From NCBI GenBank assembly GCA_903855945.1, contig CAIOAK010000015.1, positions 124,001-188,000 of the forward strand: a stretch of DNA of 64,000 nt. Direction: 5' to 3'. The stretch is from an uncultured Anaeromyxobacter sp. (GTDB lineage: Bacteria > Myxococcota > Myxococcia > Myxococcales > Anaeromyxobacteraceae). Of the stretch, positions 4,169 to 44,671 are shown in pieces (within the stretch, counting starts at the first letter, position 1; each line of letters begins with the position of its first letter). The translations under genes were made by a program, and so were the position numbers. The notes beneath the pieces were generated by a model, which made no database searches, was not told the DNA's origin, and worked only from the letters and a program-made list of their open reading frames with translations.

Positions 4169-7028
<2,860 letters not shown>

Positions 7029-7030
7029 CA

Positions 7031-7050
7031 GCGCGCCCTTCAGGGCGCGC
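7031..7050 (+). terminator. hairpin after mreB
   Basis: GCGCGCCC (7031-7038), loop TTCA, GGGCGCGC (7043-7050): a perfect 8-bp stem beginning 2 bp after the mreB stop. No U-run follows. It is a likely transcript end. A second smaller hairpin, GTCGGGA/TCCCGAC at 7174-7189, lies further into the same 266-bp intergenic region. Confidence 0.55.
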
Positions 7051-7231
7051 AAGAACCACCCCACGGCACCGCCTCACCTTCGGAGTCGCTCGCGGTTCGC
7101 CTTCGGTAACCCTTGCCTGGTGCCGCCGGCCCCACGGAAGGGCGTCCCCGCTGTCGCGGGTCCCCGGCACCCCGTCGGGAAATCCCGACACCCACCCCTC
7201 CTAACCCCCCGGAATCCCGTGCTTCGCCACC

Positions 7232-7247
7232 TGGCAAGCCGCCTGCA
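7232..7247 (+). promoter_or_regulatory. sigma-54-type promoter candidate for the small membrane protein
   Basis: TGGCAAGCCGCCTGCA (7232-7247) has the -24 GG (7233-7234) and -12 GC (7245-7246) exactly 10 bp apart. It matches TGGCAYRNNNNTTGCW at all fixed positions except two. The expected start is near 7258, 37 bp before the ATG at 7295. A sigma-54-activating regulator is encoded at 12350-13705. Confidence 0.55.
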
Positions 7248-7294
7248 TTACCTCCTCCCGTCTACCAACCTCGACGGAACTCAAGGAGAACCCC

Positions 7295-7597
7295 ATGAAC
7301 CGCAAGACCCCCAGCATCGTCGGCGCCGCAGTCGGACTGGCCCTCTTCCTCGCCATCGCGCTGCTCCCCGCGCTCCTCTACGGTGGTTACGCTGGCGTCA
7401 TGCTGGCCGGTGGGATCTTCGGGACGCCGGTTCAGCCCACCTTCGCGGTCCGTGCCCTCATCATCTTCGGGATGGTCATGGGCGTCACGGGCGTCGGCTC
7501 CCTCTTCGCGGTCGGCGGCGCGGTGGCCGGCGCTGCGGTCGGCGTCCTCGCCAGCGGAAACGAGAAGAAGGCGGCCGTCCAGGCCTCCAAGGTCTAG
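7295..7597 (+). CDS. small membrane protein, function unknown
   Basis: 100 aa, no family recognised. Lys/Arg near the N-terminus is followed by a hydrophobic segment (about 9-29, AVGLALFLAIALLPALLYGG). Further hydrophobic stretches lie at about 31-44, 50-70 and 72-88, ending in a short charged tail EKKAAVQASKV. Glycine and alanine are frequent, suggesting closely packed helices. The start has an AAGGAG ribosome-binding site. It is a single-gene unit: sigma-54-like promoter upstream, very strong terminator downstream. Its position next to the cytochrome block may be meaningful but nothing in the sequence proves it. Confidence 0.72.
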   Translation: MNRKTPSIVGAAVGLALFLAIALLPALLYGGYAGVMLAGGIFGTPVQPTFAVRALIIFGMVMGVTGVGSLFAVGGAVAGAAVGVLASGNEKKAAVQASKV

Positions 7598-7615
7598 TCC
7601 ACGCCCCTTCTGCCA

Positions 7616-7651
7616 GGAAATGCGGCTCCGGGACCCCGGGGCCGCATTTCC
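7616..7651 (+). terminator. strong intrinsic terminator
   Basis: Perfect 11-bp inverted repeat: GGAAATGCGGC (7616-7626) and GCCGCATTTCC (7641-7651). The 14-nt interior can itself pair partly (CCGGG/CCCGG). It starts 18 bp after the stop of the small membrane protein. The T-rich right arm followed by CGTTTC makes this the best terminator in the window. Confidence 0.8.
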
Positions 7652-7746
7652 GTTTCGGGCAGGCTCGCACGCGCAAGTCGTGCATCGTCCCGAAATCTGA
7701 TCCAGCGCAATGCTTTTGAATTCCGAACCCTTATCCTGCGCCGGTT

Positions 7747-7762
7747 CGGCATACCCCCTGCA
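7747..7762 (+). promoter_or_regulatory. sigma-54-type promoter candidate for the 7-haem cytochrome
   Basis: CGGCATACCCCCTGCA (7747-7762) keeps GG (7748-7749) and GC (7760-7761) 10 bp apart, plus the GGCA and TGCA cores. The expected start is near 7773, 11 bp before the ATG at 7784. It is weaker than the site at 7232 because the flanking T positions are missing. Confidence 0.42.
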
Positions 7763-7783
7763 CGGGGCCTCCCACCGACCCTT

Positions 7784-9478
7784 ATGCGCGCAAAGACCAT
7801 CCTCCTCCTCTCGCTGCTCCTGACGCTCCCCTGGGCCGCCTCCGCGGCCGACGCCCCCGCCAAGGCGGCCGCGCCCGACCCCAACCAGGCCTGCCTCGAC
7901 TGCCACTCGGCCGCGAAGCCGGACGAGTCGGGCGTGCGCCCGGTGGAGTTCGGCAAGTCGGTGCACGGCTCCTTCGGCTGCACCGACTGCCACGCCGGCT
8001 ACCAGGCGCCCGGCCCGCACGAGCTCACCCCGCTCGACGGTGCCGACGGGGCGCTCGTGGCCCGGTTCGATGCGCTCAAGGCCAGCACCGCCCCTCGCGC
8101 CTACCTCGCCTGCCAGAACTGCCACGGCGAGGTGACGGAGCAGCTCGCCGCCTCGGTCCACGGGAAGTGGATGAAGGGCGACGCCAAGGTGGCCGGCCCC
8201 ACCTGCGCGAAGTGCCACGGCACGGTCCACGAGATCGTGAAGGGCGTCCAGGCCCCCGCAGCGGGTGACGCAAAGTTTACCATTGGTGCAAGAGCCATCT
8301 CGGCGCGCTGCGAGAAGTGCCACTCCGACGCCACCTTCACCGAGAAGGCCGGCCTGAAGGACGACGTGGGGGCGACCTTCCGCGACTCCATCCACGGCCG
8401 GCTCGTCGCGGTCGGTTCGGCCCGGGCCCCGGCCTGCGCCGACTGCCACGGCAGCGCGGAGAAGGATGCGAAGGGGGTCCTCCACCCGAACGCCCACCGG
8501 ATCCTGGCCAAGACCGACGCCGCCTCGCCGGTGGCCGGGAAGAACCGGGCCCAGACCTGCGGCCGCTGCCACGACGGCGCCAGCGACAACTTCGCCCAGC
8601 TCGTCGCCCACCGCCCCGCTGCGGAGAGCGACAGCAAGATCCCCCACTTCCTCCACGTGGTCTTCTCGTGGCTCGCCGCGCTCACGCTCTTCTTCTTCGC
8701 CGGCCATGTGCTCCTCGACCTGGCCGCCGAGATCCGCCACAAGGTGAAGGCGCGGAAGGCGGGGCACGGCCCCGATCCCGTCAAGGAAGCGCTCTTCGTC
8801 CAGCGCTTCGACATCCACCAGCGGGCCCAGCACTGGCTCATGCTCTCCGGCGTCATCGTCCTCGGCGTCACCGGCTGGCCGCTGCGCGGCGCGGGCTCCG
8901 CGGAGGCCATCGAGTCCTCCCGGAAGATCATGGCCCTCTTCGGCGGCCCCCACGGCGCGGCGCTGGTCCACCGCATCGCCGCCGTGGTGATCATCATCTC
9001 GGGCGCCTACCACCTCGGCTACCTCCTGCTCCACGGCGCACGCCGTACCCTCGCCTTCTCCATGCTGCCCGGCCCGCGCGACGTGTTCGAGATCCGGGAC
9101 AACCTCCGCTACATGCTCGGCTTCGGCGACCGGCCGGGCTACGGCAAGTACAGCTACCTGGAGAAGTTCGATTACTGGGCGGTGTTCTGGGGCATGATCA
9201 TGATGGTCGGCACCGGGTTCGTCCTCTGGTTCCCGGTCTTCTTCGCCAAGTACGCGCCGCACTGGATCCTGACCTCGGCGCAGATCATCCACGGCGAGGA
9301 GGCCACGCTCGCGCTCCTCTTCCTCTTCGTGGTGCACTTCTACAACGCGCACCTGAAGCCCTCGATCTTCCCGATGAACTGGGTCTGGCTCACCGGCAAG
9401 ATGAGCCACTCCATGCTCGAGGAGGAGCACCGGGGACAGTACGAGGACCTGACCGGGAAGAAGAAGGACCCGCACTAG
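7784..9478 (+). CDS. heptahaem cytochrome c fused to a membrane cytochrome b (CbcL-like quinol dehydrogenase)
   Basis: 564 aa. A signal peptide (about 1-22) leads to a periplasmic part with seven CxxCH haem c motifs: CLDCH (37-41), CTDCH, CQNCH, CAKCH, CEKCH, CADCH and CGRCH, all before residue about 270. The C-terminal half has five membrane helices (starting FLHVVFSWLAALTLFFFAGH, then HWLMLSGVIVLGVTGWPL, HRIAAVVIIISGAYHLGYLL, WAVFWGMIMMVGTGFVLW, ATLALLFLFVVHF) with histidines placed as b-haem ligands. This domain order resembles Geobacter CbcL, which passes electrons from menaquinol to periplasmic carriers; haem number differs. It is followed convergently by a membrane protein and a 12-haem cytochrome. 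Confidence 0.87.
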   Translation: MRAKTILLLSLLLTLPWAASAADAPAKAAAPDPNQACLDCHSAAKPDESGVRPVEFGKSVHGSFGCTDCHAGYQAPGPHELTPLDGADGALVARFDALKASTAPRAYLACQNCHGEVTEQLAASVHGKWMKGDAKVAGPTCAKCHGTVHEIVKGVQAPAAGDAKFTIGARAISARCEKCHSDATFTEKAGLKDDVGATFRDSIHGRLVAVGSARAPACADCHGSAEKDAKGVLHPNAHRILAKTDAASPVAGKNRAQTCGRCHDGASDNFAQLVAHRPAAESDSKIPHFLHVVFSWLAALTLFFFAGHVLLDLAAEIRHKVKARKAGHGPDPVKEALFVQRFDIHQRAQHWLMLSGVIVLGVTGWPLRGAGSAEAIESSRKIMALFGGPHGAALVHRIAAVVIIISGAYHLGYLLLHGARRTLAFSMLPGPRDVFEIRDNLRYMLGFGDRPGYGKYSYLEKFDYWAVFWGMIMMVGTGFVLWFPVFFAKYAPHWILTSAQIIHGEEATLALLFLFVVHFYNAHLKPSIFPMNWVWLTGKMSHSMLEEEHRGQYEDLTGKKKDPH

Positions 9479-9489
9479 CGGTTCGAGCC

Positions 9490-9519
9490 GGGTCCGGCCG
9501 GGTCCGGCCGGGTCCGCCC
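9490..9519. repeat. three tandem 10-bp repeats
   Basis: GGGTCCGGCC occurs at 9490-9499 and 9500-9509, and as GGGTCCGCCC at 9510-9519. It fills the 46-bp gap between convergent genes. It may be a terminator-like structure or simple slippage repeat. Confidence 0.6.
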
Positions 9520-9524
9520 GGGAA

Positions 9525-9845
9525 CTACGCTCCCGACTTCGCGTCCTCGCGCCGCAGCGGCGACGGGACGATGCCGAGCACGAAGAGGAGCGCGCCGACG
9601 AGGCCGTTGCTCACGCGGGCCTGCATGGAGACGTCCGGGAGCAGGATCGCCGCCCAGAAGAGGATGAAGGCGAGTCCGGAGATGATGAGCCGCAGGCTCA
9701 TCCGGCCGGGCGAGGCGATGGAGATCCCGCTGACGAGCAGCGACACGATCCAGGCCATCAGGAACGACTCGCCACTCTGGGGAAAGGCGAAGGTCGAGAT
9801 CATGAGCCAGGAGCAAAGGGTCACGATCAGTGCCATGAATCGCAT
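9525..9845 (-). CDS. small integral membrane protein (SPW-repeat-like)
   Basis: 106 aa with four predicted membrane helices: about 2-20, 28-46, 50-68 and 76-94 (NGLVGALLFVLGIVPSP). The layout of short paired hairpins with small residues resembles SPW-repeat proteins, but this is a loose resemblance and no function is known. The start ATG has a GGAGG ribosome-binding site 8 bp away. It lies downstream of the 12-haem cytochrome on the same strand, separated by 111 bp with a hairpin, so cotranscription is uncertain. Confidence 0.66.
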   Translation of the reverse strand: MRFMALIVTLCSWLMISTFAFPQSGESFLMAWIVSLLVSGISIASPGRMSLRLIISGLAFILFWAAILLPDVSMQARVSNGLVGALLFVLGIVPSPLRREDAKSGA

Positions 9846-40400: not shown

Positions 40401-40847
40401 CCCGACGAGCGGAACCTCTGCCTCTCCGACTACTTCCGCACCGAGCGGGGCGGCGACGTGGTGGCCTTCCAGGTGGTCACGGTGGGCGACCAGGCGTCGA
40501 AGGTGGCGGACGAGATGCAGGAGAAGGCGGACTATGCGCGCGCCCTCTACCTGCACGGACTCGCGGTGGAGACCGCCGAGGCGCTCGCCGACCTCTGGCA
40601 CGCCCGGGTGCGGAGCGAGCTCGGCCTCGCCGCCGACCAGGGCAAGCGCTACTCGCCCGGCTACCCCGCCTGGCCGGACCTCGCCGACCAGAAGCTCCTC
40701 TGGCGGCTGCTCGACCCGGAGCGCGCCATCGGGGTGTCGCTCACCAGCGCCGACCAGATGGTTCCGGAGCAGTCCACCTCCGCCATCGTGCTCCACCACC
40801 CCGGCGCCGTGTACTACACCGTGAAGGGAGCGGTACCGGTGGCGTGA
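37407..40847 (+). CDS. metH: cobalamin-dependent methionine synthase
   Basis: Transfers methyl from methyltetrahydrofolate via B12 to homocysteine. 1146 aa from GTG 37407, with all four modules: homocysteine/zinc domain (about 1-320; NTFGSSRLKLDEYG, VGGCCGTTPEHI with the Cys pair), pterin domain (about 345-600; VGERVNSQGSRKVKELL, MIDSTEADVVESAL), B12 domain (about 640-860; GDVHDIGKNLVKTILANNGF with the axial His) and reactivation domain (about 900-1146; KRYSPGYPAWPD). Ribosome-binding site GGATGGGG. Its stop overlaps the GTG start of a KdpD-like kinase, an odd coupling. Confidence 0.95.
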   Translation: MTFREAVEKRVLVFDGAMGTQIQGFDLRATDFGGQEGANDLLTLTRPDLVEAIHGRYYAAGADVVETNTFGSSRLKLDEYGLGHRTYEVNFRAAILARRAAERHATPDRPRFVAGSIGPTGMLPSSSDPALSSITGDALERIFFEQARGLIDGGADAILIETQQDILEARAAVLGVDAARREAARDVFVMVQPTLIDASGRMLLGTDISAVIATLERLPVDSIGINCSTGPAEMRESVRTLCQKSSHFVSVMPNAGLPENVNGKAVYRLSPDALADALAQFISDYGVDLVGGCCGTTPEHIRKVAERVRSFPAPRRRRPAPLPELSSAMKAVPLDLQPRPLIVGERVNSQGSRKVKELLIADDYAGLLQIARDQVEGGAHVLDVCTALNEREDEAAQMRSLCRLLAQSVDAPLMIDSTEADVVESALKVYPGRCIVNSVNLEKGGERVRKVLPLVKRFGAAVVCMTIDEKGMAQTADRKAEIAQRTVAVAREYGLTPDQLVFDALTFTLATGGEEYRRSAIETLEGIRRIKAENPGVFTTLGVSNVSFGLAKAAREVVTSVFLFHAVQAGLDLAIVNPKDIRPYPLIDATERALAEDLILDRREDALARLIAHFEGKAPQATATAEALGAGEPAERRLHLQILHRRPEGIEALIDEALTRHPPVAVLNDVLLPAMKDVGDRFGSGELILPFVLQSAEVMKRAVSYLEKFLDRVEGSTKGTVVLATVYGDVHDIGKNLVKTILANNGFTVHDLGKQVPVATIIEKAVETGADAIGLSALLVSTSKQMPYCVEELARRNLSFPVIIGGAAINRRFGLRTNLLPDGNAYAGGVFYAKDAFEGLELIQKLVDPAAREALRRTTVEKALQARNAPVVESAPRPPAPRSDVRPVEKPPTPPFWGTRVVPSGAVPLSDLWPHLDLNELFKLQWGVRAKGEEYERMIREEFGPRLESLKAEVQSKGWLTPRVVYGYFPCHAEGQELVILDPEHRREELVRLRFPRQPDERNLCLSDYFRTERGGDVVAFQVVTVGDQASKVADEMQEKADYARALYLHGLAVETAEALADLWHARVRSELGLAADQGKRYSPGYPAWPDLADQKLLWRLLDPERAIGVSLTSADQMVPEQSTSAIVLHHPGAVYYTVKGAVPVA

Positions 40848-41923
40848 GGCGCTCCGGCCCCGCCCCCTGGCTCGGCTACCTGGGCGCCGCGGCGCTCGTG
40901 GTGGCGACGACCGCGGTGGGCGCCGCCACCCAGGCGGTGCTCGACGTCCCCGACGTGGAGATGCTCTACGTGGTGGCGGTGCTGGTGGCCGCGGTCTTCC
41001 TGGGGCGCGGCCCGGCGGTGGCCGCCGCGGCGGTGGGAGTGCTGGCCTACGACTGGTTCTTCGTCCCGCCCCGCTACACGCTTAACGTCGCCGACGGCCG
41101 CTACCTCTTCACCTTCGGGATGATGTTCGGGATCGGGCTCCTCGTCAGCTCGCTCGCCGACCGGGCCCGCGCCGCCGCGGTGCGGGCCGAGTCGGAGGCG
41201 CTCCGCGGCACGCTCCTCTCCTCGGTCTCCCACGACCTGCGCACGCCGCTCGCGGCCATCACCGGGGCCGCCACCACGCTCCGGGACCAGTCGGTGGACG
41301 AGGCCACCCGCGGGGAGCTCCTGGAGACGATCTGCGACGAGGCGGAGCGGATGGAGCGGCTCGTCGGCAACCTCCTCGACATGACCCGCCTCTCGTCGGG
41401 CCGGGTCGTCATTCACCGTGAGTGGATTCCGGCGGAGGAGCTGGTGGGGGCGGCGCTGGCCCGCACCGAGGCGCGCCTCGCCCGCCACCGGGTGGTGACC
41501 GAGATCCCGGGGCCGCCCGCGCTGGTCTCGGTCGACCCGGTGCTCGTGGAGCAGCTCCTCGTGAACCTATTGGAGAACGCCGCCCGCCACACGCCCCCGG
41601 GCACGGAGGTCTCGGTCCGGGCCACGGCAGACGGCGGCGGGCTCCAGGTGGAGGTGGCCGATCGCGGCCCCGGGATCGCCCCGGGCGAGGCGGAGCTCGT
41701 CTTCGAGCGCTTCCCCCGGAGCGGCCGGGCCACCGGGCAGGGGGCGGGGCTCGGGCTCGCCATCGCGCGGGCCATCGCCCGCGTGCACGGGGGAACCCTC
41801 ACGGTCTCGGAGCGCTCCGGCGGCGGCGCCGTCTTCCGGCTCTCGCTGCCGGGCGGCGGCCCGTCCCCCGGAGTCCCCCCGGAGCCGGAGGGCGAGGCGG
41901 ACGGAAGGGAAGGACGCACGTGA
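40844..41923 (+). CDS. short KdpD-like sensor histidine kinase
   Basis: 359 aa from GTG 40844. The protein begins at the DUF4118 four-helix membrane part (about 8-105; LAYDWFFVPPRYTLNVADGRY is the diagnostic KdpD segment) and continues to HisKA with His130 (SSVSHDLRTPLAAITGAATT) and the ATPase domain (NLLENAARHTPPGT, ADRGPGIAPGEAELVFERF, GAGLGLAIARAIARVHGG). The large N-terminal KdpD/Usp domains of the 900-aa E. coli protein are absent. It is coupled by GTGA overlaps to metH before and to the regulator after. Likely potassium or osmotic sensing, by family. Confidence 0.9.
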   Translation: MRRSGPAPWLGYLGAAALVVATTAVGAATQAVLDVPDVEMLYVVAVLVAAVFLGRGPAVAAAAVGVLAYDWFFVPPRYTLNVADGRYLFTFGMMFGIGLLVSSLADRARAAAVRAESEALRGTLLSSVSHDLRTPLAAITGAATTLRDQSVDEATRGELLETICDEAERMERLVGNLLDMTRLSSGRVVIHREWIPAEELVGAALARTEARLARHRVVTEIPGPPALVSVDPVLVEQLLVNLLENAARHTPPGTEVSVRATADGGGLQVEVADRGPGIAPGEAELVFERFPRSGRATGQGAGLGLAIARAIARVHGGTLTVSERSGGGAVFRLSLPGGGPSPGVPPEPEGEADGREGRT

Positions 41924-42618
41924 GCGAGCCGCGGGGGACGATCCTGGTGGTGGAGGACGAGCCGCAGATGCGCCGTTTCCTGCGCGCGTCGCTGGGGGCC
42001 GAGGGCTACCAGGTGCGGGAGGCCTGGACGGTCGCCGACGGGCTGCGCGAGGCGGCCGCCGAGCACCCCGACGCCATCCTGCTCGACCTGGGCCTCCCCG
42101 ACGGGGACGGCCTGGAGCTCCTGCGGCGCGTGCGGGAGTGGTCTCAGGTTCCGGTGATCGTGGTCTCGGCGCGCGGCCGGGAGGAGGAGAAGGTGGCCGC
42201 GCTCGACGCGGGGGCCGACGACTACCTGCCCAAGCCCTTCGGGACGAAGGAGCTGCTCGCCCGGCTCCGGGTGGCGCTGCGCCACGCCCGGGCCGGTTCC
42301 ACCCCGGGCGAGCCGGTCCTCGCGGTGGGACCGCTCCGCATGGACCTGGAGCGGCACGAGGCGGCCCTAGACGGCCGGCCGGTGCGCCTCACCCCCATCG
42401 AGTGGCGGCTGCTCGCGCTGCTCGCGGCCCATGCTGGAAAGGTGCTGACCCACGCCCAGATCCTGCGCCAGGTCTGGGGGCCGAACGCCACGGCCCAGTC
42501 CCACTACGTGCGGGTCTACATGGCCGAGCTCCGCAAGAAGCTGGAGGCCGATCCGTCCCGCCCCCGGCTGCTCCTCACCGAGCCGGGTGTGGGCTACCGG
42601 CTGGCTCCTCCAGCGTGA
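41920..42618 (+). CDS. kdpE: KdpE-like OmpR-family response regulator
   Basis: 232 aa from GTG 41920, overlapping the kinase stop. Receiver domain with Asp56 (AILLDLGLPDGDG) and Lys in DYLPKPFGTKELLARL; winged-helix DNA-binding domain at about 130-230 (RLTPIEWRLLALLAAHAGKVLTH, QSHYVRVYMAELRKKLE, TEPGVGYRL). This is closest to KdpE by motif. No kdpFABC genes are in the window; instead the gene converges on a KimA-like permease and overlaps its 3' end by 44 bp. Direct repeats upstream of that permease are candidate binding sites. Confidence 0.9.
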   Translation: MSEPRGTILVVEDEPQMRRFLRASLGAEGYQVREAWTVADGLREAAAEHPDAILLDLGLPDGDGLELLRRVREWSQVPVIVVSARGREEEKVAALDAGADDYLPKPFGTKELLARLRVALRHARAGSTPGEPVLAVGPLRMDLERHEAALDGRPVRLTPIEWRLLALLAAHAGKVLTHAQILRQVWGPNATAQSHYVRVYMAELRKKLEADPSRPRLLLTEPGVGYRLAPPA

Positions 42619-44599
42619 CCCGCACCGGGAGGACCATGGCGTTCATCCCGGCGAACTGGAGCCGGCGCTGCAGCGAGTAGGCGGTCTCGTTGTGGAGGAG
42701 CCGCTGGTAGAAGCGTTCCTCCCGGAAGATGAGCTTCCCGGCGAAGAAGAGGGAGCGGGGGAACTCCCGGCTCACCTCGAGCGCCATGCGCTCCGCCTCG
42801 CTCACCGCCTCGGTGGCCACCGAGACCCGGTAGTCGGCGGCGAAGCCGAGCCGCCGCGCCAGGTCCACGTACTGCTGCAGCGAAGCCTCCGTGCGCTGCC
42901 TCACCCGGTCCACCTCCTCGACCCCCTTCATGGCGGCTGCGTCGATGACGCCCACGGAGAGGAAGATCACGTTCTTGAAGTGGTTCGGGAAGAGGCGCTG
43001 GACGGTGAGGAGGGCATGCACGCCGAGACCGGCGTAGGAGCCCACCAGCATCACGGCCGTGGGAAGCTTCGGATCGAGCGGGCGGGGCGGGCCCGGCGGC
43101 GCCGCGGGCAGGGCCGCCATCACCGCGTCGAGCCGCCCGAGGTGGGTCTGCACGTCGCGGTAGTGACGCCGGATCCGGAAGCAGAGCGCCACCACGGCGC
43201 CGGTGACGACGATGGTCACCCAGCCGCCAGCGAGGAACTTCTGGGAGACGATGCCCACCAGGATCCCGCCGCAGAGGAGGAAGGCGATCCCGTGCAGGAG
43301 GAGGTCGAAGGTCCGGCTCCTCTCCCGATGGGTCCACTGGAACTTGAGCATCGCGGCCTGGGACAGCGAGAAGGTGAGGAAGACGTTGATGGAGTACATG
43401 GTGACGAGCTTGTCCAGGTGACCGCCGGTGAAGAACAGCGTGGCCAGGCTGGCGCCCCCCATGAGCAGCACGCCCGACTGGGTGACGAGCCGGTCGGAGA
43501 GGGACGCGAAGCGATGGGGCATCCAGCTGTCGGTGGCCATGTTGGCCATCACCCGGGGCCCGTCGAGGAAGCCGGCCTGCGCCGCCACGAAGAGGAGCGC
43601 CGCCTCCACGACGAGCGTTCCGGTCACGAACCATCGCCCCGCCGGGGAGCCGGCCAGGCCGAAGGAGCCCACGAAGTTCTCGAGCAGCACGGCGTTCATC
43701 GTCTTCCCCTCGACCGGAGCGACCCGGAAGAGGAGGTAGGCGAGCAGGATGCCGCCCGCCGTGACCGAGAGGGAGATGGCCATGTAGGCCATGGTCCGCT
43801 TGGCCGTCGCGACGCGGGGCTCCCGCATGATCTGGAGCCCGTTCGAGACCGCCTCGATGCCGGTGTAGGTACCGGCTCCCATGGAGTAGGCGTAGACGAA
43901 GATCCCGGCGATCGCCCCCCATCCCATCGACCCCACCGACTCCTTCCCCTTCTGGACGAGCTCGACGGCGATGGCGGGAGCGTCCCCGACATGGGTGCCC
44001 ACCCCCACGAAGATGAGGATGGCGTGGGTCACGAGGAACAGGAGGAAGATCGGTGCCAGCACGCTCACCGACTCCTTCACGCCGCGCAGGTTGAGAACCA
44101 CGAGGAGCAGGATGGTCGCGCCCTCCGCGGGGAGCTTCCAGGGGGTGAGGGTCGCCGGGAGGAAGCTCCAGATGGCCTCCCCGCCGGCCGCGATGGAGAC
44201 CGAGATGGTGAGCACGTAGTCGACGAGCAGCGCCGAGCCGGAGACCACGCCTGCCCCGGACCCGAGGAGGCGCGTGGCCACCACGTAGCCTCCGCCTCCG
44301 AAGGGGAAGTGCTCGATGATCCGGGAGTAGGCGAGCGAGATGATGAGGACGGTCAACCCCGTGGCGAGCGCGAGCGCCGGCGCCAGGAAGTGGAGGTCGC
44401 CGATGGCCCGGTAGAGCTCGTCGGGACCGTAGGAGGAGGAGGAGAGGCCGTCGGCGCCGAGACCCACCCAGGCGAGCAGGGCGACGAGCGAGACGTGCTT
44501 GTAGGTGCTGGGGTCGTTGATGTCCCGGGGTGCGCCGAACAGCGCGCGACGGAGCCCTCCGCCCCGCGGAGGATCCTGGCGATCGTCTGGGTCGTCCAT
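42575..44599 (-). CDS. KimA-like potassium/amino-acid permease (APC superfamily)
   Basis: 674 aa. N-terminal tail about 1-35, then twelve membrane helices to about residue 480. The opening VALLAWVGLGADGLSSSSYGPDELYRAI is the conserved start of KimA/KUP-type permeases, where the GADGLSSSSYGPDE segment forms the K+ site. The C-terminal cytoplasmic domain, about 180 residues (VMLVGSYAGLGVHALLTVQRL, SEAERMALEVSREF), resembles a Usp-like fold, like the c-di-AMP-binding tail of KimA. The neighbouring KdpDE-like pair supports potassium uptake over amino acid transport. Expression may depend on the direct repeats at 44631-44671. Confidence 0.82.
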   Translation of the reverse strand: MDDPDDRQDPPRGGGLRRALFGAPRDINDPSTYKHVSLVALLAWVGLGADGLSSSSYGPDELYRAIGDLHFLAPALALATGLTVLIISLAYSRIIEHFPFGGGGYVVATRLLGSGAGVVSGSALLVDYVLTISVSIAAGGEAIWSFLPATLTPWKLPAEGATILLLVVLNLRGVKESVSVLAPIFLLFLVTHAILIFVGVGTHVGDAPAIAVELVQKGKESVGSMGWGAIAGIFVYAYSMGAGTYTGIEAVSNGLQIMREPRVATAKRTMAYMAISLSVTAGGILLAYLLFRVAPVEGKTMNAVLLENFVGSFGLAGSPAGRWFVTGTLVVEAALLFVAAQAGFLDGPRVMANMATDSWMPHRFASLSDRLVTQSGVLLMGGASLATLFFTGGHLDKLVTMYSINVFLTFSLSQAAMLKFQWTHRERSRTFDLLLHGIAFLLCGGILVGIVSQKFLAGGWVTIVVTGAVVALCFRIRRHYRDVQTHLGRLDAVMAALPAAPPGPPRPLDPKLPTAVMLVGSYAGLGVHALLTVQRLFPNHFKNVIFLSVGVIDAAAMKGVEEVDRVRQRTEASLQQYVDLARRLGFAADYRVSVATEAVSEAERMALEVSREFPRSLFFAGKLIFREERFYQRLLHNETAYSLQRRLQFAGMNAMVLPVRVTLEEPAGSPHPAR

Positions 44600-44630
44600 G
44601 GGCGGAAGATAGGACCCGTGACCTCAGCCG

Positions 44631-44671
44631 CGGCTCAAGAGGCGGACCCCTCGCATCAAGAACGCATCAAG
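44631..44671 (-). promoter_or_regulatory. direct-repeat operator candidate upstream of the KimA-like gene
   Basis: CGCATCAAG occurs at 44652-44660 and 44663-44671, 11 bp apart (one helical turn). A weaker copy, CGGCTCAAG, is at 44631-44639, 21 bp from the first. OmpR/KdpE-family regulators bind such head-to-tail repeats. They lie 32-72 bp upstream of the permease start, in the 165-bp gap shared with the divergent efflux operon. Confidence 0.45.

Follow-up and report, generated by a model that had tools for sequence, protein, structure and literature searches.

Conserved direct repeats upstream of a KimA-like permease gene as the predicted operator of a KdpE-activated promoter

The window, by which we mean the whole 64-kb stretch of DNA analysed here, belongs to a 4.07-Mb draft genome (G000) that is spread over 213 contigs and is 99.1% complete. 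Within it metH, which ends at 40847, is followed on the plus strand by genes for a KdpD-like sensor and a KdpE-like response regulator, then on the minus strand by the gene for a KimA-like permease, and then by a divergent efflux operon that is again on the plus strand:

40844..41923, plus strand, KdpD-type sensor, histidine-kinase half only (Pfam: DUF4118, HisKA, HATPase)
41920..42618, plus strand, kdpE-like gene for an OmpR/PhoB-type response regulator, its 3' end overlapping the convergent kimA
42575..44599, minus strand, kimA-like K+ permease gene, 674 aa, with its ATG at +72 of the box described below
From about 44765, plus strand, CusCBA-type efflux operon, divergent from kimA

The permease gene and the efflux operon share a 165-bp intergenic region, which holds the repeats considered here. 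The GTG start codon of the short kdpD overlaps the stop codon of metH (GTGA, 40844-40847), and because of this overlap the metH transcript may also be the message from which KdpD and KdpE are translated in this genome. No metH was detected by tblastn in the 15-kb locus of G002, a relative from the same genus.

The permease, to which Pfam assigns the domain AA_permease_2, matches Bacillus subtilis KimA (6s3k) with E=6.1e-54 over residues 17-489, and this is the only PDB sequence reported for it at E<=0.001. Judged by these matches it is KimA-like and would be a K+ transporter. The regulator comprises a receiver and a winged helix (Pfam), and its original description as KdpE-like is borne out by its match to the structure of Escherichia coli KdpE (4kny; E=4.6e-77, level with the best PDB match) and by the NCBIfam models, 100 of which match, that for KdpE scoring highest (285.9 bits, the next being 185.6). 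Since that score falls below the NCBIfam KdpE cut-off of 325, we retain the name KdpE-like. The residues R193, R200 and T215, described as DNA contacts of E. coli KdpE (PMC3264566), appear to be conserved in the window regulator, where R, R and T are aligned with them in the 4kny alignment, the chain offset being our own count. For the sensor, Pfam reported no KdpD serine-kinase (PF02702), Usp or GAF domain, so that it has neither PF02702 nor Usp, the pair by which a full-length KdpD is recognised here, and the best stretch of the NCBIfam KdpD model is confined to positions 647-883 of 895. PF02702 is absent from the whole genome G000.

The sequence CGCATCAAG lies at 44652-44660 and again at 44663-44671 on the plus strand, giving the direct repeat with an 11-bp period that had originally been pointed out (CGCATCAAGAACGCATCAAG, exact at 44652-44671). 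The weaker third copy named at the same time, CGGCTCAAG, is likewise present at 44631-44639, 21 bp before the first exact copy, and corresponds to half-site 3 of a larger element. Two further parts of that element had been overlooked: half-site 4, which is degenerate (44622-44628), and, at a conserved distance, a -10-like hexamer (44606-44611). Taken alone, an exact repeat is not rare in such GC-rich DNA: the window holds three exact 9-mer repeats at 11 bp against 1.5 expected under a first-order Markov model, with about 0.004 expected within the 165-bp intergenic stretch. Across the whole genome GCATCAAGNNCGCATCAAG has a single exact match, and with up to three mismatches the count rises to 8, below the 10 of the reversed control; a three-half-site pattern finds the window site with one mismatch and two other sites with three mismatches each, the reversed control also giving three matches. 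Because the exact repeat is by itself not rare, the significance of the element has to be sought in its conservation.

Read toward the permease, the element has CTTGAYG-like half-sites at 0, +11, +32 and +43 followed by a -10-like hexamer at +60, and as a whole runs from 44671 to 44606 on the minus strand. Its parts are given below with their occurrence in 26 aligned promoters, the window included; the 18 family promoters were aligned by half-sites 1 to 3, and because the best alignment was chosen by these, their conservation is partly by construction, whereas half-site 4 and the -10-like hexamer had no part in that choice:

44665..44671, minus strand, predicted KdpE half-site 1, CTTGATG, position 0; present in relatives, TTGA in 25/26
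44654..44660, minus strand, predicted KdpE half-site 2, CTTGATG, +11; TTGA in 22/26 and TGA in 26/26
44633..44639, minus strand, predicted KdpE half-site 3, CTTGAGC, +32; TTGA in 26/26
44622..44628, minus strand, predicted KdpE half-site 4, GCTGAGG, +43, degenerate; TGA at +45 to +47 in 22/26
44606..44611, minus strand, -10-like hexamer TATCTT, +60, its role as a -10 being presumed

A matrix trained on the 25 other promoters, without that of the window, gives the window site a score of 48.0, and the next best site in the 64 kb scores -3.9. Within the hexamer, A at +61 is found in 24 of the 26 promoters, T at +65 in 18 and T at +60 in 14 (G016 has no TAnnnT there), a pattern that resembles a -10 at a set distance from the half-sites. 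With its end 10 bp short of the hexamer, the last half-site would cover the -35 position. In PhoB-type activation, 11-bp direct repeats stand about 10 bp before the -10 and the box takes the place of the -35, and the downstream box of the window resembles this arrangement. Nine of 13 boxed kimA genes have the ATG or GTG nearest to the -10 on its downstream side at +72 to +74, two have it at +76 or +78 and two at +93 or +96; given that start codons are mostly at +72 to +74 of the box, most of these mRNAs are probably leaderless, as is probably that of the window kimA with its ATG at +72. A GGAG-type site was noticed by eye between the -10 and the start in several kdp, kdpD and porin genes.

Conservation of the repeats upstream of orthologous permeases, which had been proposed as a check, was looked for among the 28 KimA matches of the family, of which 26 were examined, two distant KimA-like copies (36-37% identity; G016 and G017) being left out. 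Twelve of these copies are linked, with KdpD/KdpE in the fetched stretch (G023 is counted here, though KdpD alone is in view), and 14 are unlinked, with neither there. When the best match to half-sites at 0/+11/+32 was compared with 200 shuffles per locus, the layout was present in all 12 linked copies, each at the floor of p=0.005, and in none of the 14 unlinked copies, none of which reaches 0.05 (Fisher p=1.0e-7, kinship ignored). The linked copies thus do not show the lack of repeats at orthologues that had been named as refuting. It also lies upstream of kdpA in G017, G020, G022 and G024, where the locus is of the KdpD/KdpE type, and in G021, where it is some 0.45 kb ahead of kdpD.

We searched 24 whole genomes with a family pattern, TTGAYR-N5-YTGAYR-N15-TTGA. 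It gave 17 matches in 12 of the 24 genomes, all of them upstream of kimA, kdpA or kdpD by position. Most of these promoters were already known when the pattern was drawn up, which makes the matches partly a product of its construction; the informative part of the scan is the zero count of the reversed control, on either strand, together with the lack of matches elsewhere. The box is found in 12 of the 14 family genomes that have a KdpD-like sensor and in 0 of the 10 that do not (Fisher p=6.7e-5). The two sensor-bearing genomes without a pattern match are G023, where the layout is only weak, and G033, where kdpA is 173 bp from a contig end. A loose pattern, CRTCAAG-N4-CRTCAAG, was too weak to be of use, with 9 matches against 6 in the control over the 24 genomes, and no recognisable K+ gene lies near G026:C42 or G029:C4, which account for two of the nine; the spaced pattern was used in its stead.

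Across 145 genomes of the order, a stricter four-half-site pattern gave 17 matches in 13 genomes and none in the control, missing the window, G002, G020, G024 and G030 because the half-sites are more degenerate there. Eight of these matches are outside the family, one before kimA (G129), one before kdpA (G136) and six before a BBP2 porin gene. The boxed porin genes carry PF07642 by Pfam in G049, G087, G129, G133 and G136, and that of G050 is a 64% homologue of the G087 porin. At six loci of another family (L175, L177, L179, L180, L183 and L186) the box precedes a BBP2-type porin gene, mostly one just before kdpFABC or kdpD. The boxed porins suggest a dedicated outer-membrane route of K+ entry.

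Forty stretches from the order were then scored with a matrix built from the family only and excluding the window. Outside the family the box is present, with 29 to 42 points, in all seven testable kdpFABC loci with a full-type KdpD (G049, G050, G087, G129, G133, G136 and G011, with the promoter on the contig), five of which had been picked by pattern beforehand, the kdp promoter of G129 and G011 being the two that had not; in G136 KdpD and KdpE are on another contig, and in G011 the contig ends inside kdpD. Loci with a separate KdpD N-terminal chain reached more than 10 points in none of 26 testable cases. Left out of these counts were G033, G128, L219 and L224, where the promoter is at or near a contig end, and L207, with no kdpD-type gene in view. 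A separate early scan covered 30 kdpA and 10 further kimA loci of the order as well as 21 named kimA loci, a match being a site that at most 3 of 100 shuffles equalled; it returned G019, G002 and G022, which were already known, the doubtful L065 and no others, and the named kimA loci of other phyla, the Ignavibacteria locus L139 included, did not show the box. In that locus, from an Ignavibacteria MAG, genes for KimA, for a KdpE-like regulator and for a KdpD without N-terminal domains lie at 5335-9749, and its 17.7 kb contain neither kdpFABC nor such a box.

The loci with a separate chain form a second kdpFABC class (L110, 10575-13591; 26 testable loci of L194-L221), in which the N-terminal/Usp part of KdpD is a chain of its own. 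They usually go with a HAMP-PAS histidine kinase (HK652 here) and are without a KdpE-like match. No KdpE box was found at the kdpA of G018 or at the 26 loci tested outside the family. Among the family's own type-2 kdpA loci, with a separate KdpD N-terminal chain or unclassed, one of eight shows the layout at p=0.005; this exception, in G019, has the layout upstream of kdpA and no KdpE beside it, KdpDE being encoded elsewhere in that genome. The type-2 locus L121 gives p=0.040, on the opposite strand only.

Taken together, the repeats are very probably the operator of a KdpE-activated promoter for kimA, at which binding by KdpE is predicted. According to this reading, when K+ is scarce the truncated KdpD encoded next door would phosphorylate KdpE, and KdpE~P would bind two tandem boxes, one made of the half-sites at 0/+11 and the other of those at +32/+43; the downstream box, ending 10 bp before the -10, would take the place of the -35, and KimA would then import K+. 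What can be read from the DNA is the conserved layout, its restriction to KdpD/KdpE operons, the lack of KdpA in the genome and the truncation of KdpD; KdpE binding, phosphorylation, a low-K+ signal, activation in place of repression and K+ transport by the window KimA are what we infer. The proposal that the KdpD/KdpE pair controls KimA-type uptake is thus supported by the linkage of box and KdpDE in a genome where a KdpA search was negative, and by that search the original observation that no kdpFABC is visible holds genome-wide. No TrkH-family K+ importer was found in the whole genome either, and the window KimA may therefore be one of few K+ importers.

It is improbable that the site is bound instead by another regulator of the OmpR/PhoB family. 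PhoB is an example, since its sites share the geometry of 11-bp direct repeats some 10 bp ahead of a -10; however, the box tracks the KdpD-like sensor across the family genomes and all of its family matches are at kimA, kdpA or kdpD. Still less probable is a role for the repeats in regulating the divergent efflux operon and not the permease. The shared intergenic region would allow it, and CusCBA-type efflux operons are often controlled by OmpR-type regulators of the CopR/CusR kind, but half-sites and -10-like hexamer alike point toward kimA, with no such layout on the opposite strand (p=0.289). Moreover, in G002 the layout stays with kimA while a homologue of the window's outer-membrane efflux gene is absent by tblastn from the 15-kb locus, and other relatives have kdpFABC or kdpD on the far side. 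A chance repeat without function, to which the counts of exact 9-mer repeats in the window and of loose-pattern matches would be congenial, is exceedingly improbable, as the layout is conserved in relatives and the longer patterns have no control matches.

KdpA and PF02702 occur in exactly the same 13 of the 24 family genomes and both are missing from the other 11 (Fisher p=4e-7, kinship ignored), of which four are less than 90% complete (G001, G023, G030 and G031) and two, G016 and G021, are single contigs that are 100% and 99% complete. Six pumpless genomes (G000, G002, G016, G021, G029 and G030) have a KdpD lacking its N-terminal domains beside KdpE and a boxed kimA, and the serine-kinase domain is kept in the six relatives for which all of kdpD is in view (G017, G018, G019, G020, G022 and G024). 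A paper whose survey took species annotated with a Kdp pump reports phosphorylation of KdpB by the serine-kinase domain of KdpD (PMC11018627), and the pattern of KdpA and PF02702 in the family is what this model predicts. On balance we favour the view that KdpDE is a K+-starvation switch that outlived its pump, in that several lineages lost kdpFABC together with the pump-inhibiting serine kinase of KdpD and kept a stripped KdpD/KdpE, the double box and, for the most part, a leaderless kimA transcript. If that is true, these lineages would demonstrate, as a natural experiment, that the pump alone is served by KdpD's serine-kinase domain.

It is also quite conceivable, though we would put it at somewhat below an even chance, that the joint loss was mechanical and without functional meaning, one deletion having taken neighbouring genes; this concerns the loss of pump and serine kinase and not the box. 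The close relatives G016 and G022 differ by one gap of about 5.7 kb, with flanks that are 89% and 94% identical, which takes kdpA, kdpB, kdpC and kdpD to about codon 388, just before DUF4118, and for this reason each joint loss may have been a single mechanical event. Against this, the short/full label needs six changes on a tree of the kinase half, at least four of them forced by well-supported branches, and six on the KdpE tree, at least three of them forced, each sparing the transmembrane-kinase half and kimA; on the kinase-half tree the short group takes in the distant Ignavibacteria L139, and the rows of G000 and G002 are 44% and 48% filled. Type-2 loci, furthermore, keep the pump and the separate N-terminal chain of KdpD together.

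In a literature search outside of which subscription papers mostly lay, no report of KdpDE control of KimA appeared in the titles and abstract starts among the matches listed. The analysis provides a strong model of the KdpE box for the order, and it connects a two-component system for K+ with a secondary transporter in place of the P-type pump. Since close relatives exist with and without the pump and the serine kinase, the tandem-kinase model recently put forward for KdpD can be tested directly.

The geometry of the window site, which had been likened to that used by OmpR/KdpE-family regulators, with repeats one helical turn apart, has counterparts in two known systems. The E. coli KdpE site at kdpFABC is described as TTTATA-N5-TTTACA with a period of 11 (PMC3264566), and thus consists of direct half-sites at an 11-bp period as in the window, compatible with TTKAYR-N5-TTKAYR; as described, E. 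coli has a single box, which relative to the start spans -72 to -50, whereas the window has two, the second adjoining the -10, and the target there is kdpFABC, here kimA. In Mycobacterium smegmatis a minimal 22-bp KdpE site, CCGTAAAGAAACCATCAAGGCC, is reported from a gel shift following footprinting, and according to its authors it does not noticeably resemble other KdpE sites (PMC5401905). It holds CATCAAG and a second half-site 11 bp away, and its reverse complement, CTTGATG-GTTT-CTTTACG, has a first half-site identical to that of the window, a 4-nt gap and the same 11-bp period; the E. coli and M. smegmatis sites, reported as dissimilar, therefore fit one TTKAYR-N5-TTKAYR scheme, one of them on the other strand. 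As that source presents it, the M. smegmatis site is a single box at a SigF-type promoter with kdpFABC as its target, in contrast to the two boxes at kimA in the window.

KimA itself is known in B. subtilis, where it is described as under the control of the ydaO c-di-AMP riboswitch (PMC11018627); the permease family is the same, and the window has a KdpE-type box upstream instead of a riboswitch, no Rfam family reaching its gathering score in window 30000-54000. In some species annotated with the pump, the same source places the serine-kinase and histidine-kinase activities of KdpD on separate chains. There, as here, the two activities are separable, the difference being that the window has the histidine-kinase half by itself and its genome shows neither KdpA nor PF02702.
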